Shown here one piece after another: positions 1,191-17,266 of a stretch of DNA of 29,160 nt. Origin of the DNA: a virus; the IMG/VR virus record IMGVR_UViG_3300046000_006350, positions 1 to 29,160 of that record; one strand, written 5' to 3'. The translations under genes and the position numbers were made by a program. The notes under the pieces are model-generated. The model did not search any database. It was given only the letters and a program-made list of their open reading frames with translations, and was not told the DNA's origin. Position 1 is the stretch's first letter. Each line of letters starts with the position of its first letter.

Positions 1191-1736
1191 TTAAAAACTA
1201 TTAGTAGAAGGGTTGTAAAATACTTTACCCGTAACGGTGGTAGTTTTGGTAATGGTAGGTGTAGAATAATTAAATGTAAATACATCACCTCCCCCAATTT
1301 CTCCAAATTGCAATCTTATAGGGTAATATAACCCTGCAGCCATAGAAAAAGAAGCACTTACCTCAACTGGACCATGCGCGCCTCCGTTGTTAATATTGGA
1401 GTTGGCTGCTGTAAATCCAGATAAAGCATTAGCTCCAATCCACATATACGAGCCATCATCACTGGTTAAAAAGAATGTATGTGTTTCAGTAGTTGTAGGT
1501 TTAAAATAACCTAACCATTGACAACTAAAATTAGAACCATCATCAGAACTTGGTTCACTTATAGTAGTTGTTTGAACAGAGGTTGCCGGGTTAGCACCAT
1601 AGGTAGTAGGGGTTGCAGTTGCAAAAAAGGCAGGGTTCTCATTATGATATCCTGCATATGTAGTCTTGAAAAGACCTGCACTGTAGCTGGTAGTTGCAAG
1701 TCTATGATTTAACATCATATTCATATTACCAGACAT
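1191..1736 (-). CDS. PA14/GLEYA-like lectin-type virion protein
   Basis: A 181-residue protein. Residues 70-160 resemble the PA14/GLEYA sugar-binding fold: W74-L-G-Y-F opens the domain, SDDGSYMWIG at 92-101 matches the family's conserved acidic SDDGS(x)(L/M)(W/Y)(I/V) strand, and a late GLYYPIRLQFGE segment (135-146) matches the characteristic G-x-YYPIRL(x)(Y/F)GE strand. The two adjacent Asp residues (93-94) are the usual calcium or sugar ligands in this fold. There is no signal peptide or membrane segment. The start overlaps the upstream stop by one base (TAATG) and is preceded by AGGAG at good spacing. Lying between two fibre-like genes, it is probably a small receptor- or glycan-binding component of the tail. 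The fold call is by motif; the ligand is unknown. Confidence 0.7.
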   Translation of the reverse strand: MSGNMNMMLNHRLATTSYSAGLFKTTYAGYHNENPAFFATATPTTYGANPATSVQTTTISEPSSDDGSNFSCQWLGYFKPTTTETHTFFLTSDDGSYMWIGANALSGFTAANSNINNGGAHGPVEVSASFSMAAGLYYPIRLQFGEIGGGDVFTFNYSTPTITKTTTVTGKVFYNPSTNSF

Positions 1737-3130
1737 TATGTAACTCCTGAGCCGTTAATAAACCATGTATTCGTAGCTACTTTTATTAATGTTGCCATCC
1801 CATAAGCACTGATTGTTCTAGAGGCAGATGTACTATTTCCAGCAAGATAAAGTGTGACCCCGCTGAATGGGTTTACAGTTATACTACCCGAACCCTGCAG
1901 GATAATACTAACAGTAGTACCCACTGAAAATGCAACGTTAGCGTTGGTAGGAATTGTAATGACCTGTGTAGCAGTATTTTGGCTGTAAATATGCTTACCT
2001 GAATCTACTGTAGCTAAAGTATAACTTGTACTTTGAGCATTTTGAGGAATTTCTAAATAACCTACCGTAAAACCATTTGCTGTTATTGTGTTACGAACAG
2101 TTAAAGCGCCAGTGTCAGTCAAAGTAAGTATATCTAACAGATAGGCGCTGTTAATAACTTCTAATCCCCCAGAGCTATTAAGTCGAATATACTTGTTTGG
2201 ATTTGTAGAGCCACCCGAAGTATTTGTTAATTTTATAACATCAGCGTACCCAGTACCTCCAAATGTATTACCAGCACTTAAATTGTAAAGTGCTGTATTT
2301 GTCGGGGAACCTGTAATGGATGATGTGATAAAACCACTTGACGTTATATTACCATTAAATACTGCATTACCTGTCACTGTAATATTACTTAATGATGTAT
2401 TTGTAACAGCAGAAGTTGCTCTTGCATTAGTAAAATATAAATTTGTTACTTCTGCAACGTTAGCTGTTTTTAAATCAGCAACGTTGGCTTTTAATGCAAC
2501 GTTAGCGTTTGTTGCATAACCTAATAATATAACGTTAGAGTCACCATAGGAACTGGCGCCCCCAGTAGAAGCTACCGATGCTCCAGTTTCAACCCATTGG
2601 AATGTATCTCCATCACTAAAAAATAAGTATTCGGTAGCAGTTTCAGACTGTATCCACACATCCCCTATATTAGGATTAATTGGTGCAGAAGTAGATACAG
2701 TTACATTTGCGGCATTAATTGATAAAATGCCGGTTGCAGAATCATATGAACCTTTACCGTTTACATTACCACTTGCGACCGATATGGATGCTCGTGCCCT
2801 TGCGTTGGTAAAATAAAGATTAGTTAATTCAGAAATATTAGCAGTAGTTAATAACCCAGATGAGGTTATCCCAGAAGCCAACTGAATGTTTGAGACGTTA
2901 CCCGCTACCCCGGCAACTGTGTATGATGCAGCTACATTGGCCGCTTCAAAAGCAAGTGATGCAATGTTACCAGCAAACCCTGAACTGATTGTAATAACAT
3001 TACCAGTAGTATCTTTGGTATATAATATTCTATCAGCTAAGTTAAATACTGGTTCTCCAACCAAAACATTAGCGGCCCCTGGGACAGAGCCAGGGGTAAT
3101 AGATCGTTTTAGTTGAATATCTGTTGCCAT
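1736..3130 (-). CDS. Tail-fibre-like structural protein with shared N- and C-terminal modules
   Basis: A 464-residue protein. The N-terminus (MATDIQLKRS, then a GEPVFNLADRILYTKD segment to about residue 40) is the attachment-type head common on marine myovirus fibre proteins, and it is also found in modified form on the gene at 3544-4917. Two NLYFTNARA units lie at 104-113 and 230-238. A PxxGDVWxQSxTxxxYxFxxDGDxxQWVE segment lies at 151-181. The last 108 residues (357-464), beginning GYLEIPQNAQ and ending TNTWFINGSGVT, form a module repeated in the genes at 8514-8945 and 8981-10144. Start overlaps the previous stop by one base; the ribosome site is weak, so translation is probably coupled. 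Likely a fibre or fibre-tip subunit; the function is inferred from modules and neighbours. Confidence 0.75.
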   Translation of the reverse strand: MATDIQLKRSITPGSVPGAANVLVGEPVFNLADRILYTKDTTGNVITISSGFAGNIASLAFEAANVAASYTVAGVAGNVSNIQLASGITSSGLLTTANISELTNLYFTNARARASISVASGNVNGKGSYDSATGILSINAANVTVSTSAPINPNIGDVWIQSETATEYLFFSDGDTFQWVETGASVASTGGASSYGDSNVILLGYATNANVALKANVADLKTANVAEVTNLYFTNARATSAVTNTSLSNITVTGNAVFNGNITSSGFITSSITGSPTNTALYNLSAGNTFGGTGYADVIKLTNTSGGSTNPNKYIRLNSSGGLEVINSAYLLDILTLTDTGALTVRNTITANGFTVGYLEIPQNAQSTSYTLATVDSGKHIYSQNTATQVITIPTNANVAFSVGTTVSIILQGSGSITVNPFSGVTLYLAGNSTSASRTISAYGMATLIKVATNTWFINGSGVT

Positions 3131-3498
3131 TATTTACCAGACAAAGAAGATAACTCAGCTTTAAGTCTTCTTATTTCTTGTAGAAGTGTTTCGTTTTGAT
3201 CACGTACAAATTTTGTACTGCTATCAATATTGGCGCTTGATAATGCTAGTTGTTGTTTAAGTATGTTATTTTCTTCTTCAACGGTTCTAAGCTGTTCTTG
3301 TATAACGGAATAAGTATTAATTTCGTTCGCACTGATACCCTGACCAGACACTCTTTCAAGATAACTCTTATATGCGTCTCTCTCCTCAATGGCCATTTGA
3401 AGTTGAGACTCAAGTACGATGACTTGAGCCTGAAACGAATTTAATTTTTGATTTGTCTTATCAATTATTACATTAAAAAACTTACTCTGATCTTCCAT
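3130..3498 (-). CDS. Small coiled-coil protein, probably virion-associated
   Basis: A 122-residue protein from ATG at 3498. It is almost entirely helical and charged, with heptad-like Leu/Ile spacing in residues 17-48 and 65-118 (for example EENNILKQQLAL and LLQEIRRLKAELSSL), so a coiled coil is likely. There are no Cys, no signal peptide and no membrane segment. A GTG two codons earlier (3504) is also in frame, but GGGG five bases before the ATG favours the ATG. This gene has its own TATAAATA promoter and a hairpin around its ribosome site (see 3503-3540). It is translationally coupled to the fibre gene that follows (TAATG overlap). It could be a fibre assembly factor or a short trimeric connector; I do not recognise the family. 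Confidence 0.7.
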   Translation of the reverse strand: MEDQSKFFNVIIDKTNQKLNSFQAQVIVLESQLQMAIEERDAYKSYLERVSGQGISANEINTYSVIQEQLRTVEEENNILKQQLALSSANIDSSTKFVRDQNETLLQEIRRLKAELSSLSGK

Positions 3499-3502
3499 AA
3501 CC

Positions 3503-3540
3503 ACCCCATAAAAATAACGTTATTGTATATTTATAGGGGT
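3503..3540 (-). promoter_or_regulatory. Hairpin masking the ribosome site, with a late promoter in its 5' arm
   Basis: On the minus strand, ACCCC-T-ATAAA (3540-3530) can pair with TTTATGGGGT (3512-3503): ten base pairs with one bulged T. The 3' arm contains the GGGG that serves as ribosome site for the ATG at 3498. The 5' arm contains most of the TATAAATA promoter (3535-3528). The loop holds the palindrome AATAACGTTATT. Read-through RNA would fold and mask the ribosome site; RNA started at the late promoter would lack the 5' arm. Confidence 0.55.
3528..3535 (-). promoter_or_regulatory. T4-type late promoter TATAAATA
   Basis: An exact TATAAATA on the minus strand, 30 bases before ATG 3498. 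The expected start is near 3522, giving a leader of about 24 bases that carries GGGGTGG. Confidence 0.75.
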
Positions 3541-3543
3541 AAT

Positions 3544-4917
3544 TTAATAAGTTCCTCCGTCGATACCACCATATACTGGGGTACCATCAGAACCTGCTTG
3601 TAGTACTTGACCGTGCGTTCCAGCTGCAGTTACACTTAATGCACCTGTAGCATTACCAAATAAAATACCGTTAGTAGTAAATGTACCGCGACCTGTACCT
3701 CCATCACCAACAGCAATGTTAGCAGTCAGTCCAGAAACTGTACCCCCAGTCAAACTAGACACCAATGTGGCAACAGTGTAGTCAGCAACAGTGACAATGT
3801 TACCTGTTGGGTTAGTAGTTAGGTCGTTAAATAATTTAAATTTACCTGAGTCAGAAGCATCTCTAAACAAGCCAGCAAACTTGGTGCCTGAATTAACGTA
3901 CTCACCAAAGAAACCAATGTCTAAGGAATCTGAAGGATTAGCATTTCCGAACTTAACCAGAGGGTCTTCAACAGTTAAGGTTGCAGTATTTAAAGTAGTT
4001 GCATTACCAAGTACAATTAAATCACCGTTAACAGTCAATGTGTTACCAATTGTAACATCATTTGGCAAACCAATTGTAATTGCTGCGTTAGAGCTACTAA
4101 CTTCGATTTCGTTAGCAGTACCTGTTAGACTTGTAACACCAGTGTTAAATATAGAAATGGTATTATCAGAAACAACTGTATTAATACCGGTGCTTCCAGT
4201 AATTCTTAAAGTATCACCACCACTTAAAGTATCTGGGGTTCCAGAATTACCAGCTAATGTAAAAGATGTGGAAACAGCTACGTTAGAAGCTGATGTAACT
4301 CTACCGAAAGTATCAACTGTAAGTACAGGTATGTTAGTTGTACCACCATATGTTGAAGCAGATACACCTGATGTTGCTAGAGCAACAGTAATGTTAGAAG
4401 ACTCACCTGCTTGACCGGATAATGTGACCCCGGTGCCAGCTGTTAAATTAGCAACATAATCACCAACAGTATCTGTACCTAGTACGACGGAATTACTAAT
4501 GACGTTGGCAACAATAGTAACATCTTGGGTACCATCGAATAATACGTTGCCTTCAAGATCCCCACTAAGGTTGATACGTCTTGCTGTAGATAGGCTTTGT
4601 GCAGATGTAGCTACAATATTACCAACAAAAGAGTTGGCGGTAATAGTATTGGCAGAAAAATTACCTAAAGAATCACGAGCAACTAAGGTGCTTACAGTAT
4701 TGGCGCTGGTTGCAGCATCTACCTTAGTTGTATAGTATCTACCACCAATGGTATGAATTACTTCCCCGCCCCCGGAGTCTTGTACTTCAATGTACAGTTT
4801 GGCGTTAGCACCATTGTTACTCTTGTCGTAGGAATAGGCTAATTCGCCTTCCAGCAGATCTGTAGTAGTTGCTGCTGTTACGTTGGGGGAGCGCTTAATT
4901 TGAATTGTGGTTGCCAT
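3544..4917 (-). CDS. Tail-fibre-like structural protein (MATTIQIKRS type)
   Basis: A 457-residue protein. The N-terminus (MATTIQIKRS, then LLEGELAYSYDKSNN...AKLYIEV and GGRYYTTKVD to about residue 67) is a head domain I know from many cyanophage and pelagiphage structural proteins. The middle carries a VVLGTDTVGDYVANL unit and a STYGG...TVDTFGRVTSASNV unit, both with counterparts in the gene at 1-1133. A later segment (VNGDLIVLGN, then VEDPLVKFGN and DIGFFGEY...FAGLFRD) is a recurrent marine fibre module. The protein ends in DGGTY, as the next gene ends in DGGIY. AAGGAACCACA before the ATG is a good ribosome site. No late promoter is seen directly upstream, so it is probably co-transcribed from 5534. 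Likely role: fibre or baseplate-attached structural subunit. Confidence 0.75.
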   Translation of the reverse strand: MATTIQIKRSPNVTAATTTDLLEGELAYSYDKSNNGANAKLYIEVQDSGGGEVIHTIGGRYYTTKVDAATSANTVSTLVARDSLGNFSANTITANSFVGNIVATSAQSLSTARRINLSGDLEGNVLFDGTQDVTIVANVISNSVVLGTDTVGDYVANLTAGTGVTLSGQAGESSNITVALATSGVSASTYGGTTNIPVLTVDTFGRVTSASNVAVSTSFTLAGNSGTPDTLSGGDTLRITGSTGINTVVSDNTISIFNTGVTSLTGTANEIEVSSSNAAITIGLPNDVTIGNTLTVNGDLIVLGNATTLNTATLTVEDPLVKFGNANPSDSLDIGFFGEYVNSGTKFAGLFRDASDSGKFKLFNDLTTNPTGNIVTVADYTVATLVSSLTGGTVSGLTANIAVGDGGTGRGTFTTNGILFGNATGALSVTAAGTHGQVLQAGSDGTPVYGGIDGGTY

Positions 4918-4940
4918 TGTGGTTCCTTGTTATTATTTTT

Positions 4941-5177
4941 TTAGTAAATTCCACCGTCCACCGCAGCAACCCCAGCCGTTATAGGCTGTGCTACCCACTT
5001 ACTTGTGGTTGTATCATAAATTAAAGTATACCCATCTTGTAAATCGGTGGTAACAACATTACTTAATGATTGTAAAGTACCACCTGTTGATTTGTTAACC
5101 GTTATACTACCGGTTGCTCCTGCTCCTTGGGCAACAGAAATACCGGTATTAGTATTTTTTCTGACTGTAATGGCCAT
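4941..5177 (-). CDS. Small virion-type protein ending in DGGIY
   Basis: A 78-residue protein starting MAITVRKNTNTG. It has a Gly/Thr-rich beta-type first half, then SLSNVVTTDLQDGYTLIYDTTTSKWVAQ..., a segment that looks like the recurring 'L-x-DGYTLVYDxxTxKWV' unit of marine fibre proteins, and ends VDGGIY. The ATG directly follows the stop of the upstream gene (TAAATG), and the next gene starts 24 bases on, so it is part of the same operon. It looks like a stand-alone copy of a fibre module and may be an accessory subunit of the neighbouring fibre. Specific function not known. Confidence 0.65.
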   Translation of the reverse strand: MAITVRKNTNTGISVAQGAGATGSITVNKSTGGTLQSLSNVVTTDLQDGYTLIYDTTTSKWVAQPITAGVAAVDGGIY

Positions 5178-5510
5178 TTATTTCGTAGCCTCAGGGTAAA
5201 TGGTTACTATTCCCTCTACAATCCTCTCCACCGTTAGAGTATTAGATACTAACTCCACATCATAAACATATCTACCTGCCTTAAGAGCGCTGGTTTGTGT
5301 AGAAGTAAGATCTAGAGAGATTGTTCCGTCTGCAGGGCTGGCAACATTTGCTGTAAATGAGGTATTAGCAGTCGTATAGTACGACCTTCTCATCTGAGAA
5401 CGTACTGTATAGTTGGTTAAATTCCTAGCCGAACCGGTATCATCAGTCACAGTTATAGTAACACTAAACGTTGTACCTTGATCGATAGCTAGATTGGAGA
5501 CGGTTGCCAT
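5178..5510 (-). CDS. Ig-like, BppU-N-terminus-like virion protein
   Basis: A 110-residue protein from ATG 5510. The layout (DQGTTFSVTITVTDDTGSARNLTNYTVRSQMRRSY, then DGTISLDLTSTQTSAL, then GRYVYDVEL..GxV..RIVEGIVTIYPE) is the beta-sandwich seen in phage baseplate upper proteins such as the BppU N-terminus and in small T4-like cyanophage structural proteins. A TTG at 5522 would extend it by four residues, but GAGGA lies between that TTG and the ATG at proper spacing, so ATG 5510 is chosen. It is the first gene after the TATAAATA at 5534-5541. A baseplate or fibre-attachment role is plausible but inferred from fold pattern only. Confidence 0.65.
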   Translation of the reverse strand: MATVSNLAIDQGTTFSVTITVTDDTGSARNLTNYTVRSQMRRSYYTTANTSFTANVASPADGTISLDLTSTQTSALKAGRYVYDVELVSNTLTVERIVEGIVTIYPEATK

Positions 5511-5533
5511 TTTATTCCTCAATATTTATCGTA

Positions 5534-5541
5534 TATTTATA
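5534..5541 (-). promoter_or_regulatory. T4-type late promoter TATAAATA, fused to a terminator
   Basis: An exact TATAAATA on the minus strand. Its first T is the last T of the upstream terminator's T-tract. The expected start is near 5528, giving an 18-base leader with GAGGA before ATG 5510. Confidence 0.75.
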
Positions 5542-5564
5542 AAAAAAGGGCCCTAAGGCCCTTT
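5541..5564 (-). terminator. Rho-independent terminator of the oxygenase cassette
   Basis: On the minus strand, AAAGGGCC-TTAG-GGCCCTTT is a perfect 8-bp stem with a 4-base loop, followed by more T (seven in a row in total, including the stem's last three). It lies 22 bases after the stop of the gene at 5586-5813 and is the clearest terminator in the window. Confidence 0.8.
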
Positions 5565-12289: not shown

Positions 12290-15200
12290 TTAGTAATAAT
12301 CATAACTACTTGCAACTCCATTAGCTGCTAAAACATCCCAAGCACCGTTTCCTGATGCCCCATTTTCAATAATACTTAAGGTAATAGCTGCAGCATAATT
12401 TGAGATCGCTGTCTGTATTCCCGCGTCAGTATTAGGGAAAGAACCGTTTGCAATTCCAACTTCCCAGAACGATAGCATATCGGCAGTAGGTGTGCCAGCA
12501 TTAACAATTGATGCGACAGTTTCTTTCGTTGCTTCAAAAATAGGAACAACGGTTGTATTAAAATCAGCGCTTGTTACCGAGGCAACTCTTTCTGTAAAAC
12601 TATTTCCACTACCATCAGTAGCAGAGAGAATATTTGTTGCAGTAAGATAATTATCTACAGAAAGACCGTTTGGTAATACGTAACCAGGAACTGCTAGTGC
12701 AGAAGTAGGGTTAAGTATGGCGATTGCAGGGCCGGAATGAAAGCTAAATTGAGTTCCTCCATCATTCGCTGCCAGTTCCCTATTAAAATCATACCCTTCA
12801 GGAGTAGTAACTGCTGCCTGTTGGATAACAGTAAGAGAACTTCCTCTTTCTGCAGCATATGCTGCAACTGCATCTCTGTACTGCTCAGCCCGGTCAGAAG
12901 AGAATGTACTAAAGTCAGCAGCTGCCCCATCATTATACAGGGAAGATACTATTAACCAATCTAAAGCTCTAACGGGCGGTTTAGGGGGTTCTGGTGGTGA
13001 TTTATTATGGCTTAACAAGCCCTGACAAATATATGTATGTGCTTCATCAATAGTAATCTTAACAACTGGGCCAACTGTATGATCTTCAATACCGGTAATT
13101 ACTTTACCAGACAATACATCTCCTACCTTTGCATCTTTTGCAATTAACCAAGAGGAAGTAATTTCATTATAAAATTTATGTTCATAACTACCAATAAACT
13201 CTGTATCGTTAAATATAATTTTAATTCTAGGTACTTCTGGAATTATATTACAATAGGTAACAGGGTAAGTATTCCAAATTATTGTATCTTCATGTTGGGT
13301 ATAAACCAGATCACCTACATTTAAGTTTCCAGCTTCTTTCAAGGTACCATCTGCCATTAAAATTTTCATTTCAGGTGCGGGGCAGACCGGGGGTTGGTAA
13401 GGAGGATAAGGTGGTTGTGGACCAGGTCCCGGGTCGCCTCCTCCAGTATACACGTCCTCTACGTACACAGGAGCTGGAGTACTTGCTGGAGGTGGGGAAG
13501 ATGTATCTACAAAAACTACCGGTGGAGAATATACCACCCTCGGTGGTTCAGTATAGGAAATTGTACCGCTTGCTGTATATATAGCGTCAGCAAAAGATTC
13601 TTTATCACTACCATCAGTTGGGGAGTCGGTAAGTCTAAATTTAACTGAACCAGCAGGTATTCTAAGACTGTTTATATCTAAGTTATAGTTAAACGTACCT
13701 GTAACTGTACCTTTGTCATCCGTAATTATGTCAGCACTGGTGGAAAAGTAATCCCCTGTAAATGTAACATTGGAGGTAGTATTGGCACTTTTACAGTAAT
13801 CGGTAACATTATACTCATTAAAAAAGGCATACATTTTAGTATTAGGTTTAAGCTTTTTTGCTGTAAATCTAATCGATGCGCTACGTATGAATGGAAAGAC
13901 TGCATTGGTAGAACTACCTGTAGTGCTAGCATCTGTAATTACCACACCACCTTGTACCGCCTTTGCAGCATCTTTGTTTGACGGTGTGTACCAAAACTGC
14001 TTCCAAGATCCCCATACTGAACCATAGGTTGCCTCACCTACAGAATCTGGAATAAAAGTATCGTAGGCACCAGTATCATCTCTGTATATCAATGGTTTAT
14101 CTGATGTACTAAACCATGTATCACCTGGAGGGGAAAGAGTCATTGATCCTGTAAAAGTATAATTGTCATACGGGTTAATACTTTCGACTGAATCGGAAAA
14201 ATCATTAACAATATATGGTAGATCTTCATACTGTAACATTACAGTATTATTCTTTACTACATATCCGTTATTAGTTCTATTTGCTGTAGTAGGGGTTTGT
14301 TCAACTAATTTAAAATTATCTTGAATAAATGCAGGTTTTAATTCCCCACTGTCAAAATCCATGGAGATGTTATAATCTAAATTGCGTACATCACCAATAC
14401 CATGCCCTTTAAATGCTTCTACTACGAAACCATTTTTAAATCTATCTAATCCAAAACTATCTTTGACTGAAAATACCGCAGTATCTAATTCCAATAAAGA
14501 CAAGGTAGTATAGTACTCAAGATTTTTAATTCGGTTTTCTAGTTTACCAATATCTTTCATAGTATATCGTTTTTGGTCTATAGCATAAAAGATTGAGTCT
14601 CTATTAATATTAAACCCGTAGGCAGGATGCTCTACTACAAATAGTGGCATAGCCTCAGCAGGTATTAAAGGCTCTACAGGCTCAAGACTTGATATACCTT
14701 CTTTATACGTTATCTTACCGTCACTGGTAATAAAGATTTTATCGGTTCTAGGTAAATAATAAGAATAGTCAGTTTGAAAATCATTCGCATAATCTAAGAA
14801 TTCATTTCTTACTGCTCCGGTATTCTTAAAATTTACACCGTCGTTAGAAATTCTTGGTCTTAGATCAATAGAGTCTCTTAAAGAATAAACTATACCTTGA
14901 TCTTTAAAGGTAGGTATGGTATCATAATCTGGGTATGACTCAGCACTAAAATAATCCCCTGTACCATGCGTAAAGAAATCATAATTAATCTTTATAGGAC
15001 CTACTGGTGCAGGCTTACCGGGTTTCAATTTAACTTTAGATATACCATAATATGTAGAAGTTTGACCAGTTTCTAAGGTATAATTATCAGTAATATCAAT
15101 TGAATTACTTTCTAGATAGGACGTCCCGAAAGCATTAGCCGACATTCTTACGTTTGATAGTTCATAAGCATCAGCAACACCAAGAGAAATAACGGTTGCT

Positions 15201-17266
15201 TGACAATCAGTTCTGGTAGTATAGGTGGCTGAAGTAGAGGTAGAGGTCTTAGCTTTTGCTGCAGGATCATTCTTAATGATAGTAGTATAAATCAATACGT
15301 CTTGATTAGTCAACCCGTAATCAGAAAGATCAATAGAAATGTTTCGGTTAGTGGGTGCGTCGGTAAAAGTAATTTCATCCGATTCAATTTTATAATATTT
15401 ACCTGCATTACCGCCACTTACTACAACAGCAAAATAATCTTGATCTGTTCTTGAAGCAAATGTTGTTCCAACCGCTGTGGTTAATGCTACTATGTTTGCA
15501 GAAAGTGTACCATAAAATACTCTTCTTGTACGTAAAGTAATGTCACTAAGATCTTTAATAACACTATTTGGCATTGGGAAGATATATGATGCTTTATCAT
15601 TATCAACCAAAACCGCTTCATCTCTTGTTGTATTAATTCCAAAAACATTAGATAGTGGGTAATTTCTATCTATAGTTAAAGCAGAATTAGTAGTTACTGC
15701 AGTAACTCGATATGAATTAGAAGTATCTGAATTAAATTTAATATAATCACCTACCTCAAGTTCAGAGGTAAATACAGAATTAAGGCCTACAACAGCTGTA
15801 CTTCCATTTGTTAATGTTACAGTACCAGTAACAGAAGTATTTGTAGATGGTACAATGTTTGCAGTAAAAGCAGTCGAAACATAACCAGTATCTGAAACAC
15901 TTGCATGGTATAGCTGTTTTACATCTCTTTCAAACGTATACCCGCTATTCATACTAATATCAAATAAGAAGGTATTGAAGGTAGAGGCAGCCAACATTGC
16001 GTTGCTTGAAGGAGATTCAAATCCCCTAACCTTTGCATTACCTACCAGCGTACCTGCAGGAGAGCCAGGCGTGGCGGTGTATTGGTCGTAAAGATTTATA
16101 TCTATTAAGTTGGAAGTAAAATTAGGAATACCGAATGCATCTTTTACTTCTACATAATTACCAATAGGAGTTCTAACTACAGCATTGGTAACGTTAGCGG
16201 TATCCCGTGGCTTGCTAAAAGTAAAATATCGATTTGATTGAGTTTCGACTTCATATCCCTTTACATAACTTTTACCAGGAGTTAAAATAGCTATAGAAAG
16301 ATTAGCGTTACCTTGCGCATTGCCCACATAACCTGTAAGGTCTGCAGAGGTAGCAGCATGCTCTATAAATTTAAGATTAAAAGGCTTTACCGTATAGTCA
16401 CCTGATTCATCAAAAGTTCTTCTAGCCAACTCATCTGCTAAAATATTATAACCAGGTTTATCTACTAAATTAGTTTCTTTACCATTAACTACTCTTAATA
16501 ATTCTATAAAATTATCTGAATCATTAGCACTAAATGATCTTTTATTAAGAGACAGTTCTATTTTATATCTGTCTGCACCTGGTGCAAAATAATTAAATGT
16601 ACTAATAGCAGGATCTAAAAGTGTCTCATCATCCTCACTGTTAACAGCAGATTCTACTATTTCAAGCCCTACTCTATAATTAGAATTACTAAGATACTTG
16701 TCTAGAATAATAGTATTAGCAAATACTTTTACAAAATGATCTTTAACAAAATATACACCATCACTGATACTTGCACCAAGACATTTTCCGGTAGATGAAA
16801 CAGTAGCGCTGTAAAGTGTACCGGTATCATTTGTAACAATATCTTCAGCCGCACTAAAGGCGCTAGCAGTTCTACTGGTACCAGAATCTAAATATTTAAC
16901 AAAAATTGTAGGGGGGTCAATAGCTGTAGCAGGCTCGACCTTCATTACTATAGCTCTGATTCCAGAAGTCTGACCAATCATCTCTCTATTAAGATAATTA
17001 GTAACGTCGATATCCGTAGAATTGAATGTTGACAGTAGCTTTACAAAATTAAAGTTTTGATCAAATTTAACGTTACCTGGTATAACCATTGAACCAGGTT
17101 TAAATACATGGTTACCGAATCTAGAAACTTGATTTTGAAGTATAGTTTGAAGTTGGTTTAATTCTCTTGACTGAACAGCCACACCAGGTTTAAAAAGAAT
17201 GCGGTGAAAGCCCTTACTCTCATTGTAGTCGTCATAGTACGGATCGGTGTTAAAATTAATCGCCAT
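12290..17266 (-). CDS. DUF4815 tail/baseplate protein with embedded Hint domain
   Basis: A 1658-residue protein. The N-terminus (FHRILFKPGVAVQSRELNQLQTILQNQVSRFG at 20-51, GSMVIPG at 58-64) is the hallmark of DUF4815 proteins, large structural proteins of marine T4-like tails. The DUF-type region runs to about residue 1240, including DSIDLRPRISNDG (798-810), KRYTMKDIGKLENRI..LEYYTTLSLLE (899-926) and RFTAKKLKPNTKMYAFFN (1133-1150). A Pro-rich linker (1240-1294) leads to a Hint domain (C1295 to N1421), then KSPPEPPKPPV and a 226-residue C-terminal domain of unknown type ending SYDYY. AGGTAAGAG precedes ATG 17266. The gp8 gene ends 10 bases upstream. The usual distal half of this family appears to be encoded by the next gene. 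Position after gp8 suggests a role at the baseplate periphery or fibre attachment. Confidence 0.8.
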   Translation of the reverse strand: MAINFNTDPYYDDYNESKGFHRILFKPGVAVQSRELNQLQTILQNQVSRFGNHVFKPGSMVIPGNVKFDQNFNFVKLLSTFNSTDIDVTNYLNREMIGQTSGIRAIVMKVEPATAIDPPTIFVKYLDSGTSRTASAFSAAEDIVTNDTGTLYSATVSSTGKCLGASISDGVYFVKDHFVKVFANTIILDKYLSNSNYRVGLEIVESAVNSEDDETLLDPAISTFNYFAPGADRYKIELSLNKRSFSANDSDNFIELLRVVNGKETNLVDKPGYNILADELARRTFDESGDYTVKPFNLKFIEHAATSADLTGYVGNAQGNANLSIAILTPGKSYVKGYEVETQSNRYFTFSKPRDTANVTNAVVRTPIGNYVEVKDAFGIPNFTSNLIDINLYDQYTATPGSPAGTLVGNAKVRGFESPSSNAMLAASTFNTFLFDISMNSGYTFERDVKQLYHASVSDTGYVSTAFTANIVPSTNTSVTGTVTLTNGSTAVVGLNSVFTSELEVGDYIKFNSDTSNSYRVTAVTTNSALTIDRNYPLSNVFGINTTRDEAVLVDNDKASYIFPMPNSVIKDLSDITLRTRRVFYGTLSANIVALTTAVGTTFASRTDQDYFAVVVSGGNAGKYYKIESDEITFTDAPTNRNISIDLSDYGLTNQDVLIYTTIIKNDPAAKAKTSTSTSATYTTRTDCQATVISLGVADAYELSNVRMSANAFGTSYLESNSIDITDNYTLETGQTSTYYGISKVKLKPGKPAPVGPIKINYDFFTHGTGDYFSAESYPDYDTIPTFKDQGIVYSLRDSIDLRPRISNDGVNFKNTGAVRNEFLDYANDFQTDYSYYLPRTDKIFITSDGKITYKEGISSLEPVEPLIPAEAMPLFVVEHPAYGFNINRDSIFYAIDQKRYTMKDIGKLENRIKNLEYYTTLSLLELDTAVFSVKDSFGLDRFKNGFVVEAFKGHGIGDVRNLDYNISMDFDSGELKPAFIQDNFKLVEQTPTTANRTNNGYVVKNNTVMLQYEDLPYIVNDFSDSVESINPYDNYTFTGSMTLSPPGDTWFSTSDKPLIYRDDTGAYDTFIPDSVGEATYGSVWGSWKQFWYTPSNKDAAKAVQGGVVITDASTTGSSTNAVFPFIRSASIRFTAKKLKPNTKMYAFFNEYNVTDYCKSANTTSNVTFTGDYFSTSADIITDDKGTVTGTFNYNLDINSLRIPAGSVKFRLTDSPTDGSDKESFADAIYTASGTISYTEPPRVVYSPPVVFVDTSSPPPASTPAPVYVEDVYTGGGDPGPGPQPPYPPYQPPVCPAPEMKILMADGTLKEAGNLNVGDLVYTQHEDTIIWNTYPVTYCNIIPEVPRIKIIFNDTEFIGSYEHKFYNEITSSWLIAKDAKVGDVLSGKVITGIEDHTVGPVVKITIDEAHTYICQGLLSHNKSPPEPPKPPVRALDWLIVSSLYNDGAAADFSTFSSDRAEQYRDAVAAYAAERGSSLTVIQQAAVTTPEGYDFNRELAANDGGTQFSFHSGPAIAILNPTSALAVPGYVLPNGLSVDNYLTATNILSATDGSGNSFTERVASVTSADFNTTVVPIFEATKETVASIVNAGTPTADMLSFWEVGIANGSFPNTDAGIQTAISNYAAAITLSIIENGASGNGAWDVLAANGVASSYDYY
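12293..13000 (-). other. C-terminal domain following the Hint domain, unknown
   Basis: Residues 1423-1658 of the DUF4815 protein. After SPPEPPKPPV comes a mostly helical, Ala/Ser-rich region (RALDWLIVSSLYNDG, EQYRDAVAAYAAERG, later FEATKETVASIVNAG and WEVGIANGSFPNTDAGIQTAI). I recognise no family. If the Hint domain cleaves at N1421, this would become a separate polypeptide of about 237 residues. Confidence 0.5.
13004..13384 (-). other. Mini Hint (intein/BIL-like) domain within the DUF4815 protein
   Basis: A 127-residue domain, residues 1295-1421. The N-terminal block is CPAPEMKILMADGTLKEAGN followed by LNVGDLVYT, with C1295 as nucleophile. The B-type block is FIGSYEHKFY with H1363. A WLIAKDAKVGDVLSG block follows at 1373-1387. 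The C-terminal blocks are VVKITIDEAHTYICQGLLSHN (1401-1421) with H1410, H1420 and N1421. There is no homing endonuclease insert. The residue after N1421 is Lys, not Cys, Ser or Thr, so normal splicing lacks its second nucleophile; cleavage, as in BIL domains, is more likely. Both flanks are proline-rich. Confidence 0.85.

Follow-up and report, generated by a model that had tools for sequence, protein, structure and literature searches.

The stretch of virus DNA that we have analysed (the window, 29,160 bases) carries on its minus strand T4-like structural genes: gp25, a tail lysozyme-like gp5, and a gp6 that is closest to that of Pelagibacter phage HTVC008M (43% identity). The gene at issue encodes a small coiled-coil protein for which we found no PHROG match and, in Pfam, only sub-threshold coiled-coil matches. 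Elsewhere in the window, a 181-aa protein of the tail-fibre region (1191-1736) matches the GLEYA/PA14 domain (E 2.8e-18), a carbohydrate-binding type of fold, and a 1658-aa protein (12290-17266) holds a stretch that, judged by eye only, is like a Hint/intein-type domain (CPAPEMKILMADGTLKEAGNLNVGDLVYT ... LLSHN). The window is also a mosaic: its gp6 and gp25 are 98-100% identical to those of one relative's phage (L008; 21592-23834), whose tail cassette is far more distant from the window's (1736-5541) than its gp6 and gp25 are, and two other relatives, L011 and L015, are close to the window in the cassette's upstream 457-aa gene (87-90%).

The T4-type late motif TATAAATA occurs in exact form five times on the coding strand of the window, each time with an ORF start 13 to 44 nt further on, and not once on the other strand, although the count alone (5 against 2.6 expected) is not significant. 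One of these copies stands before the coiled-coil gene and, on the strength of its motif, is predicted to be a late promoter; in every relative with the leader on its contig, the motif lies 36-38 nt before the gene. T4 promoter geometry would presumably place the RNA start of the window copy near 3522.

Table 1. Genes, predicted signals, and stem arms at the coiled-coil locus and at the head of the operon upstream
Feature	Position	Strand	Basis or remark
Coiled-coil protein gene, 122 aa	3130..3498	(-)	ATG at 3498; N- and C-termini conserved, middle variable
Upstream structural or tail-type gene, 457 aa	3544..4917	(-)	5' arm overlaps its stop codon (3546-3544)
Predicted T4-type late promoter TATAAATA	3528..3535	(-)	Exact motif; RNA start predicted at about 3522
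Masking stem, 5' arm: AATTACCCC, bulged T, ATAAA	3530..3544	(-)	Folding and opening-cost test; not in the late RNA
Masking stem, 3' arm: TTTATGGGGTGGTT	3499..3512	(-)	Folding; contains the Shine-Dalgarno GGGGTGGT (3507-3500)
Outer 5' arm: GAGGAACTTATT	3546..3557	(-)	Folding; upstream gene's last codons, to the first base of the stop codon
Outer 3' arm: AGTAAGTTTTTT	3475..3486	(-)	Folding; codons 5-8 of the coiled-coil gene
Intrinsic terminator (AAAGGGCCTTAGGGCCCTTT and U-tract) running straight into late promoter TATAAATA	5534..5564	(-)	Sequence; kept in relatives

RNA that reads through from upstream folds into a 26-bp, three-part stem (3557-3475) that encloses the entire Shine-Dalgarno (SD). 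Its core consists of 9 bp and 5 bp and extends through the SD-to-AUG spacer; outside it lies a helix of 12 bp, in which the upstream gene's last codons pair with codons 5 to 8 of the coiled-coil gene. An initial annotation of this DNA had described the core pairing correctly, in its sequence and its coordinates, and the stem is longer than was noted there. Whatever its exact start, any RNA that begins downstream of TATAAATA loses 3557-3530, that is, the 5' arm. We also considered the hairpin as an intrinsic terminator and rejected the idea, there being no U-tract and no terminator-like call at 3500-3546 on either strand.

By calculation, the ribosome site is sequestered in RNA from upstream. 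For read-through RNA the cost of opening it is 13.7 to 15.9 kcal/mol, for late RNA 4.2 to 6.0, a calculated difference of about 9 to 10 kcal/mol (14.2 versus 4.8 from SD to AUG; 15.9 versus 6.0 for the 30S footprint), so that the logic first claimed for the site, masked when read through and free in late RNA, holds by calculation. Could such a pairing simply be accidental? The leader is A/T-rich, TTTAT matches the ATAAA of the promoter, and a C-run matches the G-rich SD, so we take seriously, while thinking it unlikely, the explanation that this is chance complementarity with no selected function. A plain fold of the 71-nt stretch lends that explanation some comfort, scoring little better than shuffles (z -1.3, with 19 of 200 doing at least as well), and we dropped the z-score as evidence for the hairpin because it is too weak. 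The opening cost itself tells against chance when it is recalculated after shuffling or swapping the 20-nt 5' flank of the promoter, with 300 shuffled flanks and 110 natural flanks of other late promoters as controls: for the SD-to-AUG cost, 2 of the shuffled and none of the natural flanks are as strong as the window's, and for the 30S footprint, none of either kind is. With five late promoters in the window, the family-wise chance from the window sequence alone does not exceed a few per cent, and a second lineage with the same stem adds to the case.

That second lineage came from a search for relatives. Thirteen loci in IMG/VR carry the coiled-coil gene; tblastn and blastn found no relative of it in isolate phages, and none was found in bacterial and archaeal genomes. 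When viral contigs were scanned widely for the exact hairpin, L011, L012, and an unrelated chance match, L020, were all that came up; a second viral scan, for the promoter together with the gene start, added no members. L011 and L012 seem to belong to a single phage type. Every relative in which the leader is present keeps the promoter; this hairpin is kept only in L011 and L012, where it is stronger (opening costs 16.3 kcal/mol in read-through and 3.4 in late RNA). The arms of the window and L011 differ by five substitutions (an A-U/U-A double change, and three that exchange a wobble pair for a Watson-Crick pair or the reverse), and all 26 of the 26 pairs are intact; in the outer helix, two wobble pairs of the window are Watson-Crick in L011. 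All five substitutions keep pairing, which argues against chance, and in simulation 0.36% of trials with five random changes of these kinds left every pair standing (P 0.0036). Pair-preserving change, of the sort to which the initial annotation had looked for a check, is present in one other lineage; in the remaining relatives, the pairing is lost.

That loss is an argument for chance. The initial annotation had held that its idea would suffer if relatives kept the promoter and lost the pairing without compensation, and in part this is what we see: the L006-L009 types break two or three of the pairs, a G-G in the core among them, and L013-L017 break more. At the position of the 3' arm, relatives read GGGGTGATT or GAGGTGATT. 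Masking is not essential, because 5 of the 10 distinct leaders (L006, L007, L008, L009, and L017) keep the gene and the promoter with little or no masking; the independent lineages with a clear masking effect number two. Three of the relatives, L013-L015, have no real SD masking and have instead a different stem that spans the promoter, in which the flank of the late promoter, AAAAAACTTGC or AAAAAACTTGT, pairs with codons 5-8 (GYAAGTTTTTT; L013:2460-2530). This alternative stem (duplex P 0.002-0.006) lies within the 30S footprint and raises its opening cost (13.8-16.5 versus 5.0-7.8), a cost matched in L013, L014, and L015 by 18, 5, and 6 of 300 shuffles (2-6%) and by 4, 2, and 4 of 110 natural flanks (2-4%). 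One might imagine that selection in this phage group keeps some promoter-spanning stem by switching partners, the SD in one lineage and early codons in another, so that the late structural protein comes from the gene's own late RNA alone and none from the late polycistronic RNA, for the sake of stoichiometry and not of timing; we find this doubtful.

To see how the site compares with others, we can turn to a scan that took in 128 late promoters without selection (those of the window, its relatives, HTVC008M, Melnitz, BUCT-ZZ01, and T4). The window site ranks 7 of 128, T4 gene e ranks 2, I-TevII 3, and gene 51 8, the leader region of T4 26/51 also being high; the opening-cost scan therefore finds known cases, and the likening of the site to T4 gene e was apt, e and I-TevII having emerged beside it blind. 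In the duplex test, 6 of the 9 promoters of the coiled-coil gene reach P<=0.05, against 6 of the other 119, which is what chance would give for the latter; the comparison seems suggestive, and speaks to that degree against chance, with no clean significance level since the nine are related by descent. A simple blind test can, then, find such sites: it recovered the known T4 cases and flagged a stronger candidate in Melnitz. There (MZ577097, ~76315-76365; L093:1015-1066), between tRNA-Leu and the gp5 OB-domain gene, a AATCCCTTGT...ACAAGGGATTTTTT hairpin has TATAAATA toward its loop, the SD in its 3' arm, and the largest SD-to-AUG difference between read-through and late RNA among the 128 promoters. 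It looks like a terminator and a ribosome-site mask combined.

Which RNA, in the window, would the hairpin mask? The upstream operon opens at a late promoter (5541) that is fused to a strong terminator (5564-5545), and relatives have the same composite of terminator and late promoter at 11 of their promoters, before 110-111-aa and 319-aa genes. That promoter is the likely origin of the read-through RNA, and the long and the short RNA are both probably of the late class. No earlier class of RNA is evident, because the operon starts at a late promoter and marine relatives are, by report, without middle promoters (Methylophilales phage Melnitz, PMC9004378) or without motA (cyanomyoviruses, PMC2984593). 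Judged by sequence only, the usual T4 setting, a gene on an early or middle polycistronic RNA, is not the one found here.

We lean, with modest conviction, toward a T4-type hairpin, with a late promoter embedded in it and the ribosome site within it, on a late structural gene, where it sets dosage by the form of the RNA and does not serve as an early/late clock. We infer promoter use, an RNA start, a translational effect, and a purpose along the following lines. Read-through RNA, running from 5541 to 3498, would fold the SD into the long stem, and the coiled-coil gene on it would be translated poorly. RNA that a gp55-type RNA polymerase would start at 3522, from the embedded promoter and without the 5' arm, would be translated freely. 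There would be one exception: a ribosome finishing the upstream gene would melt the 5' arm, and the long RNA would then be translated in step with that gene. Indeed, with the 5' arm starting at the stop codon of the upstream gene (3546-3544), a ribosome that terminates there should open the stem, and ribosomes translating that gene may for some of the time hold the hairpin open. The silencing of read-through RNA that the initial annotation had proposed thus stands as calculated masking and gives way, as plain silencing, to coupling. Output of the coiled-coil protein would be set by the gene's own promoter or by translation upstream, whatever the amount of polycistronic RNA. With the long and the short RNA probably both late, the hairpin would tie output to the gene's own promoter.

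Is coupling perhaps all there is? On that account, translation from the polycistronic RNA would be proportional to that of the upstream gene, and the overlap with the promoter would be an accident. The position of the 5' arm, beginning at the stop codon with the same spacing in L011, fits it, as does the reach of a ribosome at that stop, which we take from the standard footprint to be about 3534; the promoter, however, is kept in every relative, stem or none, and so is the constant part of the arrangement, which makes coupling alone improbable. Least probable of all, and in our judgment very much so, is the timing switch of the initial annotation, in which early or middle read-through RNA would be silenced and late RNA alone translated: the device does just this for T4 e and I-TevI (PMC3014915, PMC2988022), with the same anatomy, but here the upstream genes look structural, their operon opens at a late promoter behind a strong terminator, the region has no more sigma-70-like sites than shuffled sequence gives (25 versus 20.4), and marine relatives are reported to be without middle promoters or without motA.

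The dosage reading can be set beside what is known of T4, where it is early or middle RNA, running on into a late gene, that is masked (PMC3014915, PMC2988022) and where hairpins of this kind have already been listed for e, soc, 49, I-TevI/II/III, segB, and mobE (PMC2988022, PMC3014915). The device itself is thus a known one; the novelty first claimed for the site lay in the kind of gene, and we found no such hairpin described in the literature for a coiled-coil or tail-fibre-region gene, nor any for cyanophages in the open-access literature. A close likeness is to gene e, in which TATAAATA lies within the 5'-arm sequence, the SD is in the 3' arm, the late RNA is without the arm, and the calculated difference is similar (12-14 kcal/mol); in e, however, a lysis gene, the masked long RNA, from which translation is cut about 100-fold (PMC3014915), is early, whereas the upstream RNA of the window is probably late and its gene is of the tail region. 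I-TevI/II/III and segB of T4 and mobE of Aeh1 share the late promoter inside an SD-sequestering hairpin (PMC2988022), but these are homing endonuclease genes, whose control is explained by their place in early or middle operons. T4 genes 26 and 51 are, like the window gene, late structural or assembly genes with a promoter flank complementary to the SD region; they differ in having divergent leaders with a shared promoter region, and we liken them by complementarity alone. The usual reason for the device, that early RNA be kept silent, does not seem to apply to the window gene, and we do not claim for it membership of the early-silencing class. In structure, by calculation, the window hairpin works like the T4 device, and if our reading is true, the range of that device would come to include aquatic T4-like phages not yet in culture, as well as a late structural gene.
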